Shown here: one piece after another, positions 20,015-63,959 of the stretch | Numbering within the stretch: position 1 is the first letter of the stretch | Layout of the letters: the number at the start of each line of letters is the position of its first letter | Source of the DNA: Stercorarius parasiticus | Taxonomy: Eukaryota; Chordata; Aves; Charadriiformes; Stercorariidae | DNA length: 64,000 nt | Reading direction: 5' to 3' | NCBI GenBank assembly: GCA_013396915.1 | Contig: VWZL01000260.1 | Location: 226,545-290,544 of the forward strand | Program-made: the position numbers and the translations under genes | The notes under the pieces: model-generated | The model's input: only the letters and a program-made list of their open reading frames with translations | Databases searched by the model: none | What the model was told of the DNA's origin: nothing

Positions 20015-20822
20015 CAGAGAGAAATGGCTGGAGAAATGGGCTGACAGGAACCTCACAAAGTTTAACAAGGGGAATGTGCAAAGTCCTGCACCTAGGGAGC
20101 AACAACCCCAGGCACCAGCACATACCGTAGACCACACAGCTGGAAAGCGGCTTGGCAGAAAAGCACCTGGGGTTCCTGGTGGACAACAAGTTGACCATGA
20201 GCCAGCGATGTGCCCTCATGGCAAAGGCAGCAAATGGGATCATGGGCTGCATTCGACTGTTGACAACAGGTCAAGGGAGGTGATCCTTCCCCTCTACCTA
20301 GCACTGGTGAGGCCACACCTGGAGTGCTGTGTCCAATCCTGGGCTCCTCAGCACAAGAGAGGCATGGACATACTGGAAAGAGTCCAACAAAAAGCAATGA
20401 AGGTGATTAAGAGACCAGAGCACGTCTCCTATGAGGAAAGGCTGGGAGAACTGAGATTGTTCACTCTGGAGAAGAGAAGGCTCAGGGGGAATCTCATCAA
20501 CAAATACCTGAAGGGCAAAGAGGGCAGAGCCAGGCTCTTTTCAGTGGTGCCCAGTGGCAGGACCAGAGGCAATGGGCGCAAACTGAAGCACAGGACGTTC
20601 CCTCAGAACATCAAGAAACACTTTTTTACTATGAGGATGACTGAGCACTGGCACAGGCTGGCCAGGGAGATTGTGGAATCTCTCTCCTTGGAGGTATTAA
20701 AAAGCTGGCTGGACACGGTGCCAGGCAGCCTGCTGTAGGTGGCTCTTCCTGAGCAGGGGAGTTTGGACCAGATGAGCTCCAGAGGTCCCATCCAACCTCA
20801 AACATTCTGTGATTTTGCGATG
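20015..20822 (+). mobile_element. CR1 LINE fragment, 3-prime end, plus strand
   Basis: This is the last ~800 bases of a CR1 non-LTR retrotransposon: the C-terminal end of the ORF2 reverse transcriptase followed by a short 3-prime UTR. The RT tail block starting [15 protein letters not shown] and the blocks YEERLGELRLF and [11 protein letters not shown] are diagnostic for CR1. The element ends in CCCATCCAACCTCAAACATT and a decayed octamer tail near 20800-20822. The 5-prime truncation is typical of LINE insertions. The left boundary is approximate, because similarity to CR1 fades upstream of about 20015. Confidence 0.93.
20021..20738 (+). pseudogene. CR1 ORF2 reverse transcriptase C-terminus, broken
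   Basis: The reading frame of the RT thumb and C-terminal region can be followed but is interrupted. FNKGN near 20065 is in one frame. The next block, CKVLHLGSNNP, lies in another frame and contains an in-frame TAG near 20126. From [10 protein letters not shown] (about 20268) to the end near 20738 the first frame resumes and stays open for about 155 codons. At least two frameshifts and one stop are therefore present. The RT catalytic palm, the endonuclease and ORF1 are absent. An uninterrupted 220-codon frame starting at 20076 is misleading, because its first ~65 codons are out of phase with the RT. No function is expected. Confidence 0.85.
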
Positions 20823-23810: not shown

Positions 23811-24650
23811 ATCATAGAATTATGGAAAAATTCAGGTTGGAGGGGACCTCCGACGGTCTTGTAGTTCAGCCTTCCGCTCAAAGTTGGGCTAGCTTTGAAG
23901 TTACATCAGGTTGCTTACTGTCTTGGCCAGTTGCATTTTGAGTATCTCCAGGGATGGAGGTGCCACAGCTTCTGTGGACAACTTGTGCTAGTGCTCAACT
24001 ACCATCATTGTAAAACTTTTTCCTTATTTTTTATCAGGGCCCAAAACAGGACACGCTATTCCAGATGTATCTTCACAAGTCCTGAGTAGAGAGGAATAAC
24101 CACTTTACTCAGCCTGCTGCCTACGCTTCTTCTAAGACAGCTTGATATGTGCTTAGCCTTCATTCCCACAAGCTCACAGGGTTAAGATGAGTTTCAGCGG
24201 GGTCCTTATCTGCAGATCTGCTCCTCAGCCAGTCATCCCTCAGCCTGCACCAACAGAGAGGGTTAGCCCTACCCAGGGGCAGGACCTTGCTTTCATCTTT
24301 GGTGCATTTCATGAAGTTCCTTCTGGCTGATTACTCAAGCTGGTTTGGGTCCACCAAAGGTGGTGACATCCAACATATCAGCCATTCCTCCCAGTTTGGT
24401 ATCATCAGGAGACTTGCTGAGGGCTCATTATGTCCCATTGTCCAGGTTATTGATGAGTTTGCCATTTGTTAATCCACACTGATAGTTCTCTGTTGCTGTC
24501 TTTCCCTTTGTGTGCAGTGAAATGACCTGCATGAAGACTTGCTCCATAATTTTTCCAAGAACTGAGGGAAGACTGACTGTCTTTTAGTTGCCTGGATCTT
24601 CTTTCTTGCTTTTTTCAAAAAACATTTTTTTCTCTTACTGCAGACCCAAA
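23811..24650 (-). mobile_element. Old CR1 LINE fragment with internal deletion, minus strand
   Basis: On the minus strand this is a diverged CR1 3-prime portion. The element end is at 23811 (ATCATAGAATTATGG, reverse of the octamer tail), followed by GGAGGGGACCTCC and the 3-prime UTR. Then come pieces of the RT C-terminus (about 24000-24100) and the RT region preceding it (about 24190-24465), which holds the ATCATCAGGAGACTTGCTGAG block matching the FADD-region context. At about 24465 it jumps to a more upstream RT block (about 24515-24640, TTTTCCAAGAACTGAGGGAAG), so several hundred bases are deleted. It is more diverged than the other CR1 copies and contains no usable frame. The right edge is approximate. 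Confidence 0.8.
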
Positions 24651-28838: not shown

Positions 28839-28839
28839 N
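28839..28839. other. Single undetermined base (N)
   Basis: A lone N inside otherwise ordinary sequence. Two other lone Ns in this window (50964, 55023) coincide with structural joins, so this one may also be a zero-length assembly gap and not a miscalled base. I see no repeat or broken element on either side that would decide it. Confidence 0.9.
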
Positions 28840-41639: not shown

Positions 41640-42254
41640 TGATTCTTCTGCATCCTGGGCTGCATCAAAAGAAGTGCAGCCAGCAGGTTGAGGGAGGTGA
41701 TTCTGCCCCTCTATTCTGCTCTGGTGAGACCCCACCTGAGTACTGCATCCAGCTCTGGGGTCCCCAACGTAAGAAGGACATGGACCTGTTGGAGTGAGTC
41801 CAGAGGAGGGCCACAAAGATGATCAGAGGGCTGGAGCACCTCTCCTATGAGGACAGACTGGGAGAGTTGGGGCTGTTCAGCCTGGAGAAGAGAAGACTCC
41901 AGGGAGACCTAATAGCAGCCTTTCAGTACTTAAAGGGGGCCTACAGAAAAGGTGGAGAGGTACTCTACCAGGGACTGTAGTGACAGGACAAGGGGTAATG
42001 ATTTTAAACTGAAAAAGGGTAGGTTGAGATTAGATATTAGGAAGAAATGCTTTACTTTGAGGGTAGAGAGACACTGAGATGCTGCCCAGAGAAGTTGTGG
42101 ATGCCCCATCCCTGGTAGCGTTCAAAGCCAGGCTGAATGGGGCTTTGAGCAACCTGGTCTGGAGGAAGGTGTCCCTGCCCATCACAGCGGGGTTGGAACT
42201 AGGTGATCTTTGAGGTCCCTTCCCACTCTAACCATTCTATGATTCTATGATTCT
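41640..42254 (+). mobile_element. CR1 LINE fragment, 3-prime end, plus strand
   Basis: The last ~600 bases of a CR1 element. RT C-terminal blocks ([21 protein letters not shown], then [13 protein letters not shown], then [20 protein letters not shown]) are visible but interrupted. A TGA lies just after MDLLE at about 41794, and the frame breaks again near 41970. The 3-prime UTR has GGTCCCTTCCCACTCTAACC, and the element ends in clear CTATGATT octamer repeats up to about 42254. The phrase [12 protein letters not shown] differs from the equivalent part of the CR1 at 20.0-20.8 kb, so it belongs to a different CR1 subfamily. Confidence 0.93.
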
Positions 42255-42485: not shown

Positions 42486-43118
42486 AGAATCATAGAATCA
42501 TAGAATCTTCATGATTGGAAAGGACCTTCGAGATCATTGAGTCCAACCATACACACACACAAAAAAAGCCACTACAATCTCTGTCACTAGAGCATGCCCT
42601 GAAGTGCCAAATCTACACGTTTCTGAAATACCTCTAGGGATGGGGACTCAACCACCTCCCTGGGCAGGCTCTTCCAGTGCCTGACCACTCTTTCAGTAAA
42701 GGAATTCCTCCTAAGGTCTAGTCTAAACCTCCCCTGCCACAACTTCAGACATTTCCTCTGGTCCTGTCATTATTCAGCTGGGAGAAGAGGCCAACACCCA
42801 CCTCTCTGCAACCTCCTTTCAGGTAGTTGTAGAGGGCAATGAGGTCTCCCCTCAGCCTCCTCTTCTCCAAACTAAACATGCCCAGTTCCCTCAGCCTCTC
42901 CTCATATGGCTTGGTCTCCAGACCCCTCACCAGCTTGGTAGCTCTCCTCTGGACCCGCTCCAGCACTTCAATGTCCCTCTTGTACAGAGGGGCCCAGAAC
43001 TGAACACAGTACTTGAGGTGAGGCCTCACCAGTGCCGAGTACAGAGGCATGATCACTTACCTACTCCTGCTGGCCACGCTATTCCTGATCCAAGCCAGAA
43101 TGCTGTGTACACTCTTAG
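42486..43118 (-). mobile_element. CR1 LINE fragment, 3-prime end, minus strand
   Basis: On the minus strand this is a CR1 3-prime end. The octamer tail (ATAGAATC repeats) is at 42486-42508. A relatively long 3-prime UTR follows, with a short CA run, and then RT C-terminal sequence. The frame at 42745-43056 reads [16 protein letters not shown], then [16 protein letters not shown], then [17 protein letters not shown], and is open for about 100 codons. The layout matches the longer CR1 at 49.9 kb, so the two are close subfamilies. Its upstream (right) end is near 43118, where sequence of an older element begins. Confidence 0.92.
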
Positions 43119-43124
43119 CATCCA

Positions 43125-44067: not shown

Positions 44068-44317
44068 GGGAAAAAAAAAAAGAAGAAAAAAGAAAGAAAA
44101 AAAAACAGAAAGAGGAAAAAAAAAGGAAAAGGGAAAGGGAAAGGGAAAGGGAAAGGGAAAAAACAAGAAAAAGAAGAAGGAAAAGAAAAAGAAAAAGGAA
44201 AAGGAAAAGAAAAAGAAAAAGGAAAAGGAAAAGAAAAAGGAAAAGAAAAAGAAAAAGAAAAAGAAAAAGAAAAAGAAAAAGAAAAAGAAAAAGAAAAAAA
44301 GAAAAAAAGAAAAAAAA
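44068..44317. repeat. 250-bp polypurine tract, (GGGAAA)n to (GAAAAA)n
   Basis: The + strand is purine for 250 bases except for C at 44106 and 44164. Five perfect GGGAAA hexamers at 44131-44160 give way to GGAAAA and GAAGAA mixtures. A run of about nine GAAAAA hexamers lies near 44245-44298. Such tracts can form triplex (H-DNA) structures, exclude nucleosomes and vary in length. All the lysine-rich (+) and phenylalanine/leucine-rich (-) frames here are artefacts of the repeat. Confidence 0.95.
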
Positions 44318-49908: not shown

Positions 49909-50792
49909 AGAATCATAGAATCATATAATTGTTTAGATTGTAAAAGACCTTTAAGAGCATCAAGTCCAACCGTTAACCTAGCACTTCCAAGTCCACCACT
50001 AAATCATGTCCCTAAGCACCACATCTACATGCCTTTCAAATACCTCCAGGGATAGTGATTCCACCACTTCCCTTGGCAGTCTGTTCCAATGCCTGACAAC
50101 CCTTTCAGTGAAGAAATTTTTCCTAATATCCAATCTAAACCTCCCCTGGGGCAACTTGAGCACATTTCCTCTTGTCTTATCTCTTGTTACTTGGGAGAAG
50201 AGACGGACCCCCACCTCACTACAACCTTCTTTCAGGTAGTTGTAGAGAGCGATAAGGTCTCCCCTCAGCCTCCTTTTCTCCCAGCTAAAAGCCCCAGCTC
50301 CCTCAGCCACTCCTCATAAGACTTGTGCTCTAGACCCTTCATCAGCTTCATTGCCCTTCTCTGGACAAGGACTGCTCCAACACCTCAATGTCTTTTTTGT
50401 AGCGAGGGGCCCAAAACTGGATACAGTACTGGAAATGCAGCCTCACCAGTGCCAAGTACAGTGGGACAATCACTCCCCTAGTCCTGCTCACCACACTATT
50501 CCTGATACAGGCCAGGATGCTGTCGGCCTTCTTGGCCACCTGGGCACACTGCTGGCTCATATTCAGTCGTCAGTCGACCGACACCTCCAGGTCCTTTTCC
50601 GCCGGGCAGCTCTCCAGCCACACTTCCCCAAGCCTGTAGCCTTGCATGGAGTTGTTGTGACCCAAGTGCAGGACCTGGCACTTGACCTTGTTGAACCTCA
50701 TGCCATTGGCCTCAGCCCGTTGATCCAGCCTGTCCAGATTCCTCTGTAGAGCCTTCCTACTCAGGCAGATCAACACTCCCGCTCAACTTGGA

Positions 50793-50804
50793 GTCATCTG
50801 CAAA
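50793..50804 (-). other. RT catalytic FADD motif in the CR1 ORF2 relic
   Basis: The codons read Phe-Ala-Asp-Asp, the metal-binding palm motif of LINE reverse transcriptases, in the context [12 protein letters not shown]. It lies about 160 bases beyond the N gap that removes the first palm aspartate. Confidence 0.85.
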
Positions 50805-50963
50805 CTTACTGAGGGTGCACTCGATCCCTTCATCAAGGTTGTCGATAAAGATAAACAGAACTGGCGCCAACACTGAGCCTTGGGGAGCACCACTTGTGAC
50901 CGGGCACCAACTGGATTTAACTCCATTCACCACAACTCTTTGGGCCGGCCTTTACCCATCAAA

Positions 50964-50964
50964 N
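50964..50964. other. Single N at a break in the CR1 reverse transcriptase
   Basis: On the right of the N the RT reads up to LTGEVPVD. On the left it resumes at the block preceding SGAPQGS. In intact CR1 these points are separated by several hundred bases encoding RT motifs 1 to 3, including the first palm Asp. The N therefore marks either an under-sized assembly gap or a true deletion whose breakpoint happens to be an ambiguous base. The first is far more likely. Confidence 0.8.
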
Positions 50965-52628
50965 AGTCAACTGGGACCTCCCCTGTTAATCAGGACTGCT
51001 GATAAATGATGGAAAGTGGCTTGGTCAGCACTTCCGCCAGATCCCTCAGTACCCTTGGGTGCATCCTATCTGATCCCATAGACATCGATGTGTCTAAGTG
51101 GTGTGGCAAGTCACTAACCATTATAGGGGCTTCATTCTGTTCCCTGTCTTCCAGCTCAGGGGGCTGGGTACCCCCAGAACAACTGGTCTTACCGTTAAAG
51201 ACTGAGGCAAAGAAGGCATTAAGTACCTCAGCCTTCTCCTCATCCTTGGTCACTATGTTTCCCCCCTCATCCAATAAAGGATGGCGATTGTCCTTAGCCC
51301 TCCTTTTGTTGCTAATGTATTTATAGAAGCACTTTTTATTGTCTTTTACACCAGGAGCCAGATTAAGTTCCAGTTGGGTTTTGGCCCTTCTATTTTTCTC
51401 CCTGCATAACCTCATGGCATCCTTGTGATCCTCCTGAGTTGCCTGCCCCTTCTTCCAAAGGCCATAAACTCTCCTTTTTTTCCCCCAAGTTCCAGCCAAA
51501 GCTCTCTGTTTGGCCAGGATGATGCCCTTCCCTTCCAGCTTGTCTTTCGGCACATGGGGACAGTGAGCTCCTGCACCTTTAAGATTTCCTTCTTGAAGAA
51601 TGTCCAGCCTTCCTGGACTCCTTTGCCCTTCATGACTGCCTCCCAAGGGACTCTGTCAACCAGGCTCCTAAACAGGCTAGAGTCTACCCTTCAAAAGTCC
51701 AAGGCAGCAATTCTACTGACCCCCCTCCTTGTTTCTCCAAGAATTGAAAACTGTATCATTTCATGATTGCTGTGCCCAAGAGGCCCTCAAACCATCACAT
51801 CACCCATAAGCCTTTCTCTGTTTGCAAACAAGAGGTCCACTGGGGCGTCTTCCCTAGTTGGCTTCACTCACCAGCTGTGTTAGGAAGTTATCCTCAACAC
51901 AGTCCAGGAACCTCCTAGACTGTTTCCTCTCTGCTGTATTGTATTTCCAGCAGACATCTTGTAAGTTGAAGCCCCCCATGAGAACAAGGGGTTGTGATTG
52001 TGAGACTTTCCCCAGCTGCTTATAGAATATTTCGTCTGCTTCTTCATCCTGGTTGGGTGGTCTATAAGAGGCTCCCATCATCATATCTGCCTTGTTGGCC
52101 TTCCCACTGATTCTTACCCATAAACAACCCTATCATCACCATCATTAATCTCTAGACAATGAAAAGACTCCCTAACATACAGGGCTACCCCACTGCTTCT
52201 CCTTCCTTCTCTATCATTTCTGAAGAGTTTATAGCCATCCATTGCAGCACTCCAGTTGTGTGAGTCATCGCACCATGTTTCTGTGATGGCAACTATATCA
52301 TAGTTTTCCTGATGCACAACGGCTTCCAGATCCCGCTGTTTGTTGCCCATACTGCATGCGTTGGTGTAGATGCACTTCAGTTTGGATATTGTTCCATATT
52401 TTTTTGGGGAAGAAACCTTAATTCCTACATGACCATTCTCAGGCCCTTGTGTGGTTTCTAACACATCAATAACCCTCGTGTCTTTGCTGCTGCATGGATC
52501 TCCTTCCCCTAACTCCACTGAGACAGCAGACCGAAGGACCTCGCTAGCACACTGTCCCTCCGATCTTGGTGTGCCATCCCCAGGCCTACCTCTAGTGAAG
52601 CTAGTTTTACCCCTTTCCCCCTTCAAAT

Positions 52629-53578
52629 CTAGTTTAAAGCTCTTTTGATGAGCCCTGCTAGCTCCTGTGCAAAGATCATTTTCCTGCTTTGAGACAGGTG
52701 TACTCCATCTGTCATCAGCAGGCCTGGTGTTGTGTACACAAACCCATGATCAAAACCCCCAAAATTCTGCTGGTGACACCAGTCTTGGAGACAGGTATCG
52801 ATCTGCTGGCTCTTCCTGTTTCTTCCCTCATCGTTCTCTGTAACTGGAGGGACAGAGAAGAACACGACTTGTGCTCCTGATCCCTTAAGCAGTCGTCCCA
52901 AGGCCATGAAGTCTCTTGATCGCCCTCAGACTTCTTGTTGCGACTTCATCGCTGCTTACCTGAAGAATCAACAATGGACAATAATCTTAGGGCCATACTA
53001 AGGTAGGAAGCTTTATCTTCACTTCTTTAACCCAGGCCCCAGGGAGGCAGCAGACTTCCCTAAGAAGTGGGTCCGGTCAGCATATTGGACCTTCTGTTCC
53101 CTTCAGAAGGGAGTCTCCTATGACAGTGATCTGTCTCTTTTTCTTTATGGAAGCAGTTTTGACACAGGACACAGGTCGACTTAACCTCAGTGACACCTTC
53201 AAGCTATGTAAACCAATGTCCTCATTATTGTTCAGTTCCACTTGCAGAGCCTCGTGCCTATTAAGCAGGGGCACGCTGCTGTAGATATTGGTATAAGAGT
53301 AAGGCACAGCCCGCAGCCTGACACCTGTGTGTCCGTGTGTTCCCACTGGAGCTCTGTCTGCGAACCTGTGTCAGTCGTGGTGGGTGCACGGAGTCCCGGT
53401 GGCTCTCTCGACTTCCCCTGAGGTTCCCCCAGTTTGGGACATCCCTCCTGTGCACTCTGCTAGAGTGCTCTGCTGCAGATTGTGCTGACACCGGAGCTGC
53501 TCGCCTCAGTGACTTCTGTAGAGCTATGAGGCTGGCTTCAGAGTCTGTGTTGCTACTGTACATAATAGGTCTGAGCAA
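52629..53578 (-). pseudogene. CR1 ORF1 with SGNH/GDSL-esterase motifs, broken
   Basis: ORF1 of CR1 elements is known to carry an SGNH-type esterase domain thought to act in the ribonucleoprotein. Here block I (VIGDSLLKGTEG) sits at about 53090-53130 with the nucleophile Ser present. The C-terminal block (DGVHLS, about 52690-52710) keeps Asp and His. The frame runs 53578 to about 53340, shifts, runs 53346-53077 to an in-frame TGA right after GPIC, and re-enters a third frame at 52907-52629, ending IKRALN. ORF1 ends three bases before the open ORF2 frame begins. The TGA could be a decayed CGA codon (CpG transition). The N-terminal part is short and the true start is not visible. Confidence 0.8.
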
Positions 53579-55022
53579 AAAAATAGGCTTGGGGAAAAAA
53601 AGTAGTTAAACTATCATATATGTCTACATCCAAGGACAGATCCCCAGCTGAGGGTAAATGACACAAATCTCAGAGTTCAACAGAGCTGCTGTGATTTGGG
53701 CTTTTGGAGGGTCTGGTGTGTTTCATATTTTTGGTGTTACGAATAACTGCTAATTACACAAGTTGTTCCTAAACTTGCTTCACTATTTCGTGTATGGCTT
53801 GCTATTTTTCATGTTTTTTAAAATACTGTATATGTTTAGCTCAACCCAATACAGAAACACCCATCAAATTGTCTCCATTTGCTGGATTTATGCTGCGACA
53901 AAATGAGCTCAAATCTCAGTTTGGTGTTTAGGTGCTTTGAAAATATCACTGAGTTGCAACCTTGATATCTCGCTTCTTTGACTCACTGCGCAGTGGACCC
54001 CCTCGTTCAGCAAAGTGGCTTTTTCAGCCTGAAATAGATGAACAGGCTCTTTTGAGGAGAAATGTTGGAAGTTACAGCTAAGTTCATGTCAGCCTGTTCT
54101 TCAATGTTTTGGAAACCTGCTGTAAATTACATGCTGTATCTTTTATAAATCATCCAAATGATCCTTGAATGGCAAATTGCAAGAACAAGTAATCCAGCCA
54201 CAAACTAACGATGAAGCATAATGAACTGTCACTTACCTGAGCGATTGATATTTTCATCCAAAGCATCCTTTCTGTTCAAACATTTGGCTGAACTGCTTCC
54301 CCAGGATTTCTCTTTCGATGATTTGAATCTCTTGTTGGCCAAATAATTTTTGCTTCCTGTAGCATTTCAGATAAATGAGATTGTACTGAGAGAAAAGCAG
54401 AGCTAACACCATTCCAGTGGAGAATTTCTTGGCTCCGCAACTTGTCTTTTCTCACTTCAGAGACTCTCCAAGTAACAGAACATATAATATAGCCTTTTAA
54501 TGTGCGCATTGTTTCCAGCCTTCTTTCTAATGGCAATGCTGTAAATTGAACTAACCGTTCGGTCATGTTTTAATAATTAACACTTTAACACAAAAGAGTC
54601 TTTTTTGGTATCCTGTCATTGAGAGAAGTTTCATAGGTGATTTAAAAAGTCTGTTTTGTCAATCTACTCTGTAGTTGCAAGGAAAAAGATTCTAAATTAA
54701 ACCTAACGGGTCATTTTTTTTTTAAAGGGCCTCAGCCCAGACTTAATTTGTGCCTGTAATACCATGGTGTGATATGTGTGATTTTACTGCCTCTCTGTAG
54801 TAATGGCTCCGCAACAGCTGCTGTTCCTGTTGTAGCCGGAGGCAAAGCTTCGCCTCGGGTCGCGTTCCTGGTACTGGAGGCGCAGCCCCTGTTGCCAGGT
54901 GGGATGTCTGCCTGGGATACGGCCAGTGACACCCCCTGCCCCCTCCTGATTTAATGGGAAACAGGTTGGTTTGGTAGATTTGCCAGACATTTGGGTTTGA
55001 GGAGTTGGTTCACCAAGGTGTG
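52735..55022. repeat. Copy 1 of a 2288-bp head-to-tail duplication
   Basis: This contains the ORF1/5-prime part of the minus-strand CR1 (52735 to about 53600) plus about 1.4 kb of its unique flank. Every stretch I compared with 55023-57310 matches at a constant offset of 2288, including homopolymer lengths such as the ten-T run near 54714. All translated frames in the two copies are identical. Left of 52735 the similarity ends after the four-base word TGTG, which both junctions share. Confidence 0.95.
53601..55022. other. Anonymous CR1 flank inside duplication copy 1
   Basis: Host DNA on the 5-prime side of the CR1. It contains no recognisable exon. The longest frame is 111 codons and runs across the copy junction through the N. 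The same sequence recurs at 55889-57310. Confidence 0.6.
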
Positions 55023-55023
55023 N
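55023..55023. other. Single N exactly at the duplication junction
   Basis: The base before the N is the last base of copy 1 and the base after it is the second base of copy 2. A one-base N between two perfectly overlapping sequences is the usual sign of two contigs placed end to end without merging their overlap. Confidence 0.9.
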
Positions 55024-55888
55024 ACACAAACCCATGATCAAAACCCCCAAAATTCTGCTGGTGACACCAGTCTTGGAGACAGGTATCGATCTGCTGGCTC
55101 TTCCTGTTTCTTCCCTCATCGTTCTCTGTAACTGGAGGGACAGAGAAGAACACGACTTGTGCTCCTGATCCCTTAAGCAGTCGTCCCAAGGCCATGAAGT
55201 CTCTTGATCGCCCTCAGACTTCTTGTTGCGACTTCATCGCTGCTTACCTGAAGAATCAACAATGGACAATAATCTTAGGGCCATACTAAGGTAGGAAGCT
55301 TTATCTTCACTTCTTTAACCCAGGCCCCAGGGAGGCAGCAGACTTCCCTAAGAAGTGGGTCCGGTCAGCATATTGGACCTTCTGTTCCCTTCAGAAGGGA
55401 GTCTCCTATGACAGTGATCTGTCTCTTTTTCTTTATGGAAGCAGTTTTGACACAGGACACAGGTCGACTTAACCTCAGTGACACCTTCAAGCTATGTAAA
55501 CCAATGTCCTCATTATTGTTCAGTTCCACTTGCAGAGCCTCGTGCCTATTAAGCAGGGGCACGCTGCTGTAGATATTGGTATAAGAGTAAGGCACAGCCC
55601 GCAGCCTGACACCTGTGTGTCCGTGTGTTCCCACTGGAGCTCTGTCTGCGAACCTGTGTCAGTCGTGGTGGGTGCACGGAGTCCCGGTGGCTCTCTCGAC
55701 TTCCCCTGAGGTTCCCCCAGTTTGGGACATCCCTCCTGTGCACTCTGCTAGAGTGCTCTGCTGCAGATTGTGCTGACACCGGAGCTGCTCGCCTCAGTGA
55801 CTTCTGTAGAGCTATGAGGCTGGCTTCAGAGTCTGTGTTGCTACTGTACATAATAGGTCTGAGCAAAAAAATAGGCTTGGGGAAAAAA
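55024..55888 (-). mobile_element. Repeated CR1 5-prime/ORF1 segment in copy 2
   Basis: The same ORF1 portion as at 52735-53600, with the GDSL block frame at 55365-55634 and the upstream frame at 55549-55866. It starts abruptly at the N, in the middle of the ORF1 C-terminal domain, with no ORF2 beyond it. It is not an independent insertion, because its flank and end coincide exactly with copy 1. Confidence 0.9.
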
Positions 55889-57310
55889 AGTAGTTAAACT
55901 ATCATATATGTCTACATCCAAGGACAGATCCCCAGCTGAGGGTAAATGACACAAATCTCAGAGTTCAACAGAGCTGCTGTGATTTGGGCTTTTGGAGGGT
56001 CTGGTGTGTTTCATATTTTTGGTGTTACGAATAACTGCTAATTACACAAGTTGTTCCTAAACTTGCTTCACTATTTCGTGTATGGCTTGCTATTTTTCAT
56101 GTTTTTTAAAATACTGTATATGTTTAGCTCAACCCAATACAGAAACACCCATCAAATTGTCTCCATTTGCTGGATTTATGCTGCGACAAAATGAGCTCAA
56201 ATCTCAGTTTGGTGTTTAGGTGCTTTGAAAATATCACTGAGTTGCAACCTTGATATCTCGCTTCTTTGACTCACTGCGCAGTGGACCCCCTCGTTCAGCA
56301 AAGTGGCTTTTTCAGCCTGAAATAGATGAACAGGCTCTTTTGAGGAGAAATGTTGGAAGTTACAGCTAAGTTCATGTCAGCCTGTTCTTCAATGTTTTGG
56401 AAACCTGCTGTAAATTACATGCTGTATCTTTTATAAATCATCCAAATGATCCTTGAATGGCAAATTGCAAGAACAAGTAATCCAGCCACAAACTAACGAT
56501 GAAGCATAATGAACTGTCACTTACCTGAGCGATTGATATTTTCATCCAAAGCATCCTTTCTGTTCAAACATTTGGCTGAACTGCTTCCCCAGGATTTCTC
56601 TTTCGATGATTTGAATCTCTTGTTGGCCAAATAATTTTTGCTTCCTGTAGCATTTCAGATAAATGAGATTGTACTGAGAGAAAAGCAGAGCTAACACCAT
56701 TCCAGTGGAGAATTTCTTGGCTCCGCAACTTGTCTTTTCTCACTTCAGAGACTCTCCAAGTAACAGAACATATAATATAGCCTTTTAATGTGCGCATTGT
56801 TTCCAGCCTTCTTTCTAATGGCAATGCTGTAAATTGAACTAACCGTTCGGTCATGTTTTAATAATTAACACTTTAACACAAAAGAGTCTTTTTTGGTATC
56901 CTGTCATTGAGAGAAGTTTCATAGGTGATTTAAAAAGTCTGTTTTGTCAATCTACTCTGTAGTTGCAAGGAAAAAGATTCTAAATTAAACCTAACGGGTC
57001 ATTTTTTTTTTAAAGGGCCTCAGCCCAGACTTAATTTGTGCCTGTAATACCATGGTGTGATATGTGTGATTTTACTGCCTCTCTGTAGTAATGGCTCCGC
57101 AACAGCTGCTGTTCCTGTTGTAGCCGGAGGCAAAGCTTCGCCTCGGGTCGCGTTCCTGGTACTGGAGGCGCAGCCCCTGTTGCCAGGTGGGATGTCTGCC
57201 TGGGATACGGCCAGTGACACCCCCTGCCCCCTCCTGATTTAATGGGAAACAGGTTGGTTTGGTAGATTTGCCAGACATTTGGGTTTGAGGAGTTGGTTCA
57301 CCAAGGTGTG
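55889..57310. other. Anonymous CR1 flank inside duplication copy 2
   Basis: Repeat of 53601-55022. No gene recognised. It continues into unique DNA at 57311. Confidence 0.7.
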
Positions 57311-57849
57311 GAGGGTACCACTGAAAACCTTGGGGTGGTTGCCTAGTGCTTCCTTGCAGGAGGTGTGTTTTGGGATAGCAAGGGGATTCATACTCTGAAA
57401 TTTTTCTGCAGTGCTTGATCTAAAGATATATTCATATCACTGCATGTCAGGCACATACCTGAAGGACCTAAATTAAGAGGCTATCATCCTTAGCTTTGTA
57501 TCCACAGTCATCTGAGGCAAAACATGCTCCAGTGCTTATTTGCGCTCTGGAAAGTGAGAGAATCCACTGTGTAAAGACTCCCTTCTCAACATAAACACCT
57601 GCCATAGGAGGTGTGGACACTCCCCTTCTCATGCTTTCTTCTGTGATTGAACAGAAGTGACATTTCTTTGCTCCTTGTGTGACCATGGAGTATAAAAAAA
57701 TGCTTGGTGTGGCATCTGCTTGCTACGGCTTTCCATTGCCAGCTTCTGCATCCCTCCCTCTTCCCTGTGGTATTACTCCAGAGCTACAAGAGACCTTCGG
57801 GGTAGGTAGGTTTATACTCCACAGTCAAGCGCAATGCAGAGAGAGATAC
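57311..57849. other. Anonymous spacer between duplication and LTR
   Basis: About 540 bases with only short frames (72 codons minus, 88 plus crossing into the LTR). Nothing recognisable. Confidence 0.55.
57845..57849. repeat. Target-site duplication, left copy (GATAC)
   Basis: Five bases immediately before the TGTGGTGG terminus. They pair with GATGC at 58984-58988, with one mismatch. Confidence 0.55.
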
Positions 57850-63958: not shown

Positions 63959-63959
63959 N
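63959..63959. other. Single undetermined base (N)
   Basis: It lies ten bases before a G run (63970-63977). It may be another unsized assembly gap. The window ends 41 bases later, so the context is too short to judge. Confidence 0.9.

Follow-up and report, generated by a model that had tools for sequence, protein, structure and literature searches.

A window of 64,000 nucleotides, the whole stretch of DNA analysed here, contains two long direct copies of one sequence with a single N between them. Was this segment duplicated in the genome of the bird, or was one segment written out twice during assembly? Our analysis points to the latter: the locus is very probably a false tandem duplication, produced by the assembler when two overlapping contigs were placed end to end.

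The duplicated unit and the CR1 LINE at its left edge

A letter-by-letter comparison of the two copies revealed that 2287 of 2287 bases match. The elements of the duplication are as follows.

52736–55022: copy 1, 2287 bp, equal to 55024–57310 and taken for the right-hand end of contig 1
55023: junction N, read as an assembly gap, the true length of which is not given by the N
55024–57310: copy 2, 2287 bp, taken for the left-hand end of contig 2
52731–52734, plus strand: TGTG in the left flank, which pairs with the TGTG at 55019–55022, a possible 4-bp microhomology if the N is a T

An earlier interpretation made from the letters alone (the sequence-only reading) had described an exact tandem duplication of 2288 bp at 52735–57310, with no difference at any place where the copies were compared and a single N as their junction. 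The duplication, the complete identity of the copies and the position of the N were all confirmed. The start, however, was off by one base, and 2288 is the period of the repeat (2287 plus the N) rather than the length of the unit: position 52735 still lies in the left flank, where its T faces the N. Beyond the edges of the unit the likeness stops immediately, except for the paired TGTG motifs. No 21-mer occurs twice within the unit (2267 of 2267 are distinct), and the rest of the window contains none of them on either strand, so that an exact match of 2.3 kb is far beyond chance. When the window was compared with itself (E ≤ 1e-5), we recovered the duplication together with six matches of 65–76% identity, all of which sit where CR1 proteins also match. 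A separate tandem array, with about 41 copies of GAAAAA, occupies positions 44070–44314.

Copy 1 begins within a mobile element that we take to be a CR1 LINE, for which the following features were identified.

50002–53387, minus strand: old decayed CR1 LINE in five blastx intervals, with esterase, endonuclease and reverse-transcriptase parts, which runs from the left flank into copy 1 without a break
52114–52749, within the minus-strand CR1: Exo_endo_phos (PF03372), a Pfam match
55016–55675, minus strand: second occurrence, within copy 2, of the 5′ portion of this CR1, truncated at the N; its blastx interval extends 7 bases beyond the N

The window has 52 ORFs of at least 110 codons; 8 of these were submitted to Pfam, with Exo_endo_phos as the single match obtained. 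No tRNA was found in the window, and Rfam gave no family at its gathering score. For the ORF at 50990–51655, 562 relatives were found at E ≤ 0.001 among 911 candidates, 120 of which were listed. The named matches among those listed are from birds, which marks the window as avian: the best, with 78% over 97% of the query, is a protein of the crane Grus japonensis, and the stork Mycteria americana, penguins and others come next. Many of the listed names describe a reverse transcriptase, or an RNA-directed DNA polymerase, from a mobile element. Five crane proteins (P0013, P0017, P0022, P0041 and P0060) are labelled in public records as ‘mitochondrial enolase superfamily member 1’, yet match the CR1 reverse transcriptase; these names look like misannotation. 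For the esterase frame, part of the listed relatives bears the SGNH-esterase domain PF13472. More CR1 fragments, on both strands, are present as blastx intervals at 20083–20759, 24038–24598, 41652–42174 and 42590–43119, and where CR1 fragments match each other in DNA they are 65–76% alike.

The esterase frame of the element (52925–52632, minus strand) spans the left edge of copy 1, and 14 of its 15 CR1 esterase relatives align over the boundary at 52735/52736 with at least 15 nt on each side and no indel within 30 nt. The alignment of the fifteenth relative, P0135, falls short of this boundary. In copy 2, the same 14 relatives stop at query base 189–198, where the N is base 191; that is, their alignments end from 2 bases before to 7 bases after the N at 55023, while P0135 stops at base 123, just as in copy 1. 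In line with the sequence-only reading, copy 1 runs on from the left flank, as the 14 alignments across the boundary indicate, and the CR1 inside the duplication is old and decayed. Judged from these alignments, the left flank has its natural continuation in copy 1, and the CR1 is interrupted at the N in copy 2. The unbroken CR1 argues against an insertion with its edge at 52736, and fits an artefact and a real tandem duplication alike.

The right join (57310/57311), unlike the left, is without independent support. A homologue search with the ORF that crosses it (57072–57419, minus strand) gave none, and an exact 27-base pattern over the right edge matched nothing in either viral_contigs or genome_contigs, neither of which is a bird collection. 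A pattern for the junction likewise had 0 matches in viral_contigs, which is not a bird collection.

Lone Ns in the window

The window contains four Ns, each of them single, at 28839, 50964, 55023 and 63959. That at 50964, which lies within the CR1 LINE, bears on what such a letter can mean in this sequence.

50964: another single N; compared with two relatives, the CR1 reverse transcriptase is short of about 368 bases at this point

Among the 120 relatives listed, 7 match both sides of this N (E ≤ 1); 6 match on its left side at E ≤ 0.001. In the case of P0007, P0060 and P0108, collinear pieces end 1 base before the N and resume 18 bases after it. For P0060 and P0108 this amounts to 129 residues each, leaving 368 bases unaccounted for, and the missing 129 residues include a KAFD motif present in both proteins; by comparison with P0007, which is itself without part of the domain, 59 residues are missing. 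The other four relatives were not used, as P0006 and P0026 match further off and P0068 and P0096 are out of order. Going by these alignments, a lone N in the window can stand for several hundred missing bases, and is then a gap mark that gives neither base nor length. It may be the assembler’s single N for any gap, or what is left of a longer run of Ns that was cut down in preparing the window. It is possible that a real deletion ends exactly at this N, which would be a coincidence. As a general reading, the idea that a lone N marks an uncalled or variable base was rejected because of the approximately 368 bases missing at 50964.

It is from this sister N that we infer a contig boundary at 55023. 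The sequence-only reading had counted the junction N towards an overlap, but a lone N can also hide missing bases, as at 50964; the N at 55023 thus shows a gap, not an overlap, and it is the 2287-bp identity that shows the overlap. Since a lone N can hide missing bases (50964) or, if the duplication is an artefact, repeated ones (55023), distances across lone Ns are unreliable. To look for duplicates next to each N, we used exact 12- to 30-mers adjoining it, within 6 kb. Only 55023 has a duplicate on both sides. That the other three lone Ns lack a flanking duplicate, leaving the window with no second case, counts against an artefact, with the reservation that the test at 63959 is weak, as 41 bases remain to its right before the window ends. 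This N lies near a G-rich run. Both it and the N at 28839 stand in sequence without a recognised repeat, and are perhaps gaps of unstated length too.

Origins of the second copy

Most likely, the true locus consists of the left flank, a single 2287-bp stretch and the right flank. Two contigs would have been built, with ends at 55022 and 55024 and both holding the 2287 bases; the scaffolder would then have ordered them, missed their overlap or left it unmerged, and set a gap mark between them. A negative gap is written by some scaffolders as one n. On this reconstruction the reads would support one copy only, and the scaffolder’s would be the program step that failed. The interpretation rests on the finding of 0 differences in 2287 bases together with an N exactly at the junction, and on the fact that a lone N can be a gap, as 50964 shows; that the gap falls on the junction is more telling than the exact identity. 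Taken together, the anatomy of the locus, the sister gap at 50964 and published base rates lead us to regard an assembly artefact as the highly probable explanation. A false duplication from a contig overlap of about 2.3 kb, as proposed in the sequence-only reading, is thus supported by the continuity of the CR1, by the gap at 50964 and by the published geometry of such cases. The duplication is probably not a real biological feature, and probably an ordinary assembly error.

The exact identity of the copies, put forward earlier as evidence for an artefact, was confirmed, but by itself it cannot tell an artefact apart from a real duplication of less than about 0.3–0.4 million years. At avian rates of 1.5–2.5e-9 per site per year, zero differences would need an age below about 0.26–0.44 million years. 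In such a scenario, a 2288-bp segment would have been duplicated in tandem very recently, by end joining or template switching at the TGTG microhomology, and the assembler would have left the junction unclosed. We consider such a duplication, perhaps still polymorphic and with one breakpoint inside the old CR1 LINE, improbable. If the N is a T, the copies would be joined by a clean 4-bp microhomology with no inserted base, a feature that the sequence-only reading does not mention. At least 4 bp are shared by chance in 1,644 of 56,001 allowed placements (2.9%), and the exact TGTG placement seen has a chance of 289/56,001 (0.5%); the microhomology is therefore mild evidence for a real event, and does not outweigh the rest. 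A real duplication by itself leaves a gap exactly at the junction unexplained, and an exact 2.3-kb tandem would normally be expected to be collapsed by short reads, or crossed by long reads without an N. In the sections of Ko et al. drawn on here (PMC9516828), gaps were absent between the true duplications that the authors examined. Recombination between long repeats was rejected as an origin, since no more than 4 bp are common to the two breakpoints. Positions 52731–52740 read TGTGTACACA, a perfect palindrome of 10 bp whose midpoint falls exactly at the left edge of copy 1; perfect palindromes of this length occur at 71 of 63,980 window positions, and as this one was spotted post hoc, we attach no meaning to it.

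Two identical direct copies with a gap of unstated length between them could also be the terminal repeats of a young mobile element, the interior of which was lost in the gap. This is extremely improbable, and the LTR pair was rejected as a candidate: copy 1 begins within CR1 coding sequence that continues unbroken from the left flank, so that its left edge is not an insertion edge, the flanks are without a target-site duplication of 3–10 bp, the unit begins with ACACA and ends with TGTG, and it holds an old decayed CR1 fragment. There remains the question of which kind of artefact the duplication represents, a choice that falls within the probability we give to an artefact as a whole. The copies might be allelic, derived from the two parental chromosomes (a heterotype false duplication). 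Overlaps in the reports of Kelley and Salzberg (PMC2864568) and of BiSCoT (PMC7649008), in the parts concerned, are mostly of this type, and the text of Ko et al. names heterotypes as the major source in three previous assemblies, with the hummingbird excepted from the tenfold excess (PMC9516828). In a table of the same paper, heterotype and homotype duplications in the older assemblies amount to 190.5 versus 5.1 Mbp for the zebra finch, 72.0 versus 54.0 Mbp for the platypus and 13.7 versus 27.2 Mbp for the hummingbird (Illumina). Against an allelic origin, heterozygosities of 0.34% (hummingbird) or 0.95% (zebra finch) would lead one to expect 7.8 or 21.7 differences in 2287 bp, where 0 were seen, the probability of which is 0.0004 or less. 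At a heterozygosity of 0.05% this probability rises to 0.32, so that the allelic kind would be plausible in a bird of low diversity. Since the excerpted results of Kelley and Salzberg give a median identity of 98.1% for false duplicates, with few above 99.5% (PMC2864568), exact identity is atypical of the allelic kind. We therefore hold two alleles to be unlikely unless the diversity of the bird is very low; by this analysis, the copies would fit better as one haplotype assembled twice, which Ko et al. class as homotype.

If the second copy is an artefact, it concerns only users of this assembly and carries no new biology. Copy-number scans and repeat counts would misread it as a young segmental duplication.

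Comparison with known false duplications

The portions of the scaffolding literature consulted, among them passages of PMC6881392 and PMC5834899, name no program that marks overlapping contigs with one N. The Meraculous paper, in the passage concerned, notes that a number of gaps in scaffolds may have negative size, in which case the contigs on either side overlap (PMC3158087).

Base rates come from the part of Kelley and Salzberg (2010) that deals with nearby contigs overlapping at their ends, where mate pairs indicated misassembly for 5,698 of 5,947 cases in chicken and 13,159 of 13,571 in chimpanzee, and, by the same measure, for 1,094 of 1,366 in cow and 8 of 22 in dog (PMC2864568). Their duplicated overlapping contigs have facing contig ends and opposite unique flanks, and share more than 300 bp at more than 95% identity, within 300 bp of both ends. 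The locus described here resembles them, as sketched in that source, in that each contig has one shared end, the unique flanks are opposite and the overlap of more than 300 bp runs to the contig ends; it measures 2287 bp, is 100% identical, and both copies reach the N. Theirs, as far as that text goes, are mostly allelic with proof from mate pairs, whereas the present case has 100% identity and is known from its sequence alone.

A gap between copies is listed as a mark of false duplication in the relevant section of Ko et al. (2022; PMC9516828), and is found here as the N at 55023, read as a gap. Like their homotype false duplications as set out there, the locus has two copies on one scaffold, a gap between them and no allelic differences. 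That class, however, is defined by read depth and k-mers, and its members often stem from read errors, whereas here the copies are without visible difference.

The layout is also that of the unmerged overlaps outlined in the BiSCoT paper, where the Bionano scaffolder puts 13 Ns between contig 1 and contig 2 and keeps the shared stretch in both (PMC7649008). There, by that account, the gap mark is 13 Ns, compared with one N here, and the overlaps are usually allelic; in both settings, contig 1, a gap mark and contig 2 follow one another with the shared region doubled, and numerous Bionano cases span several kb.
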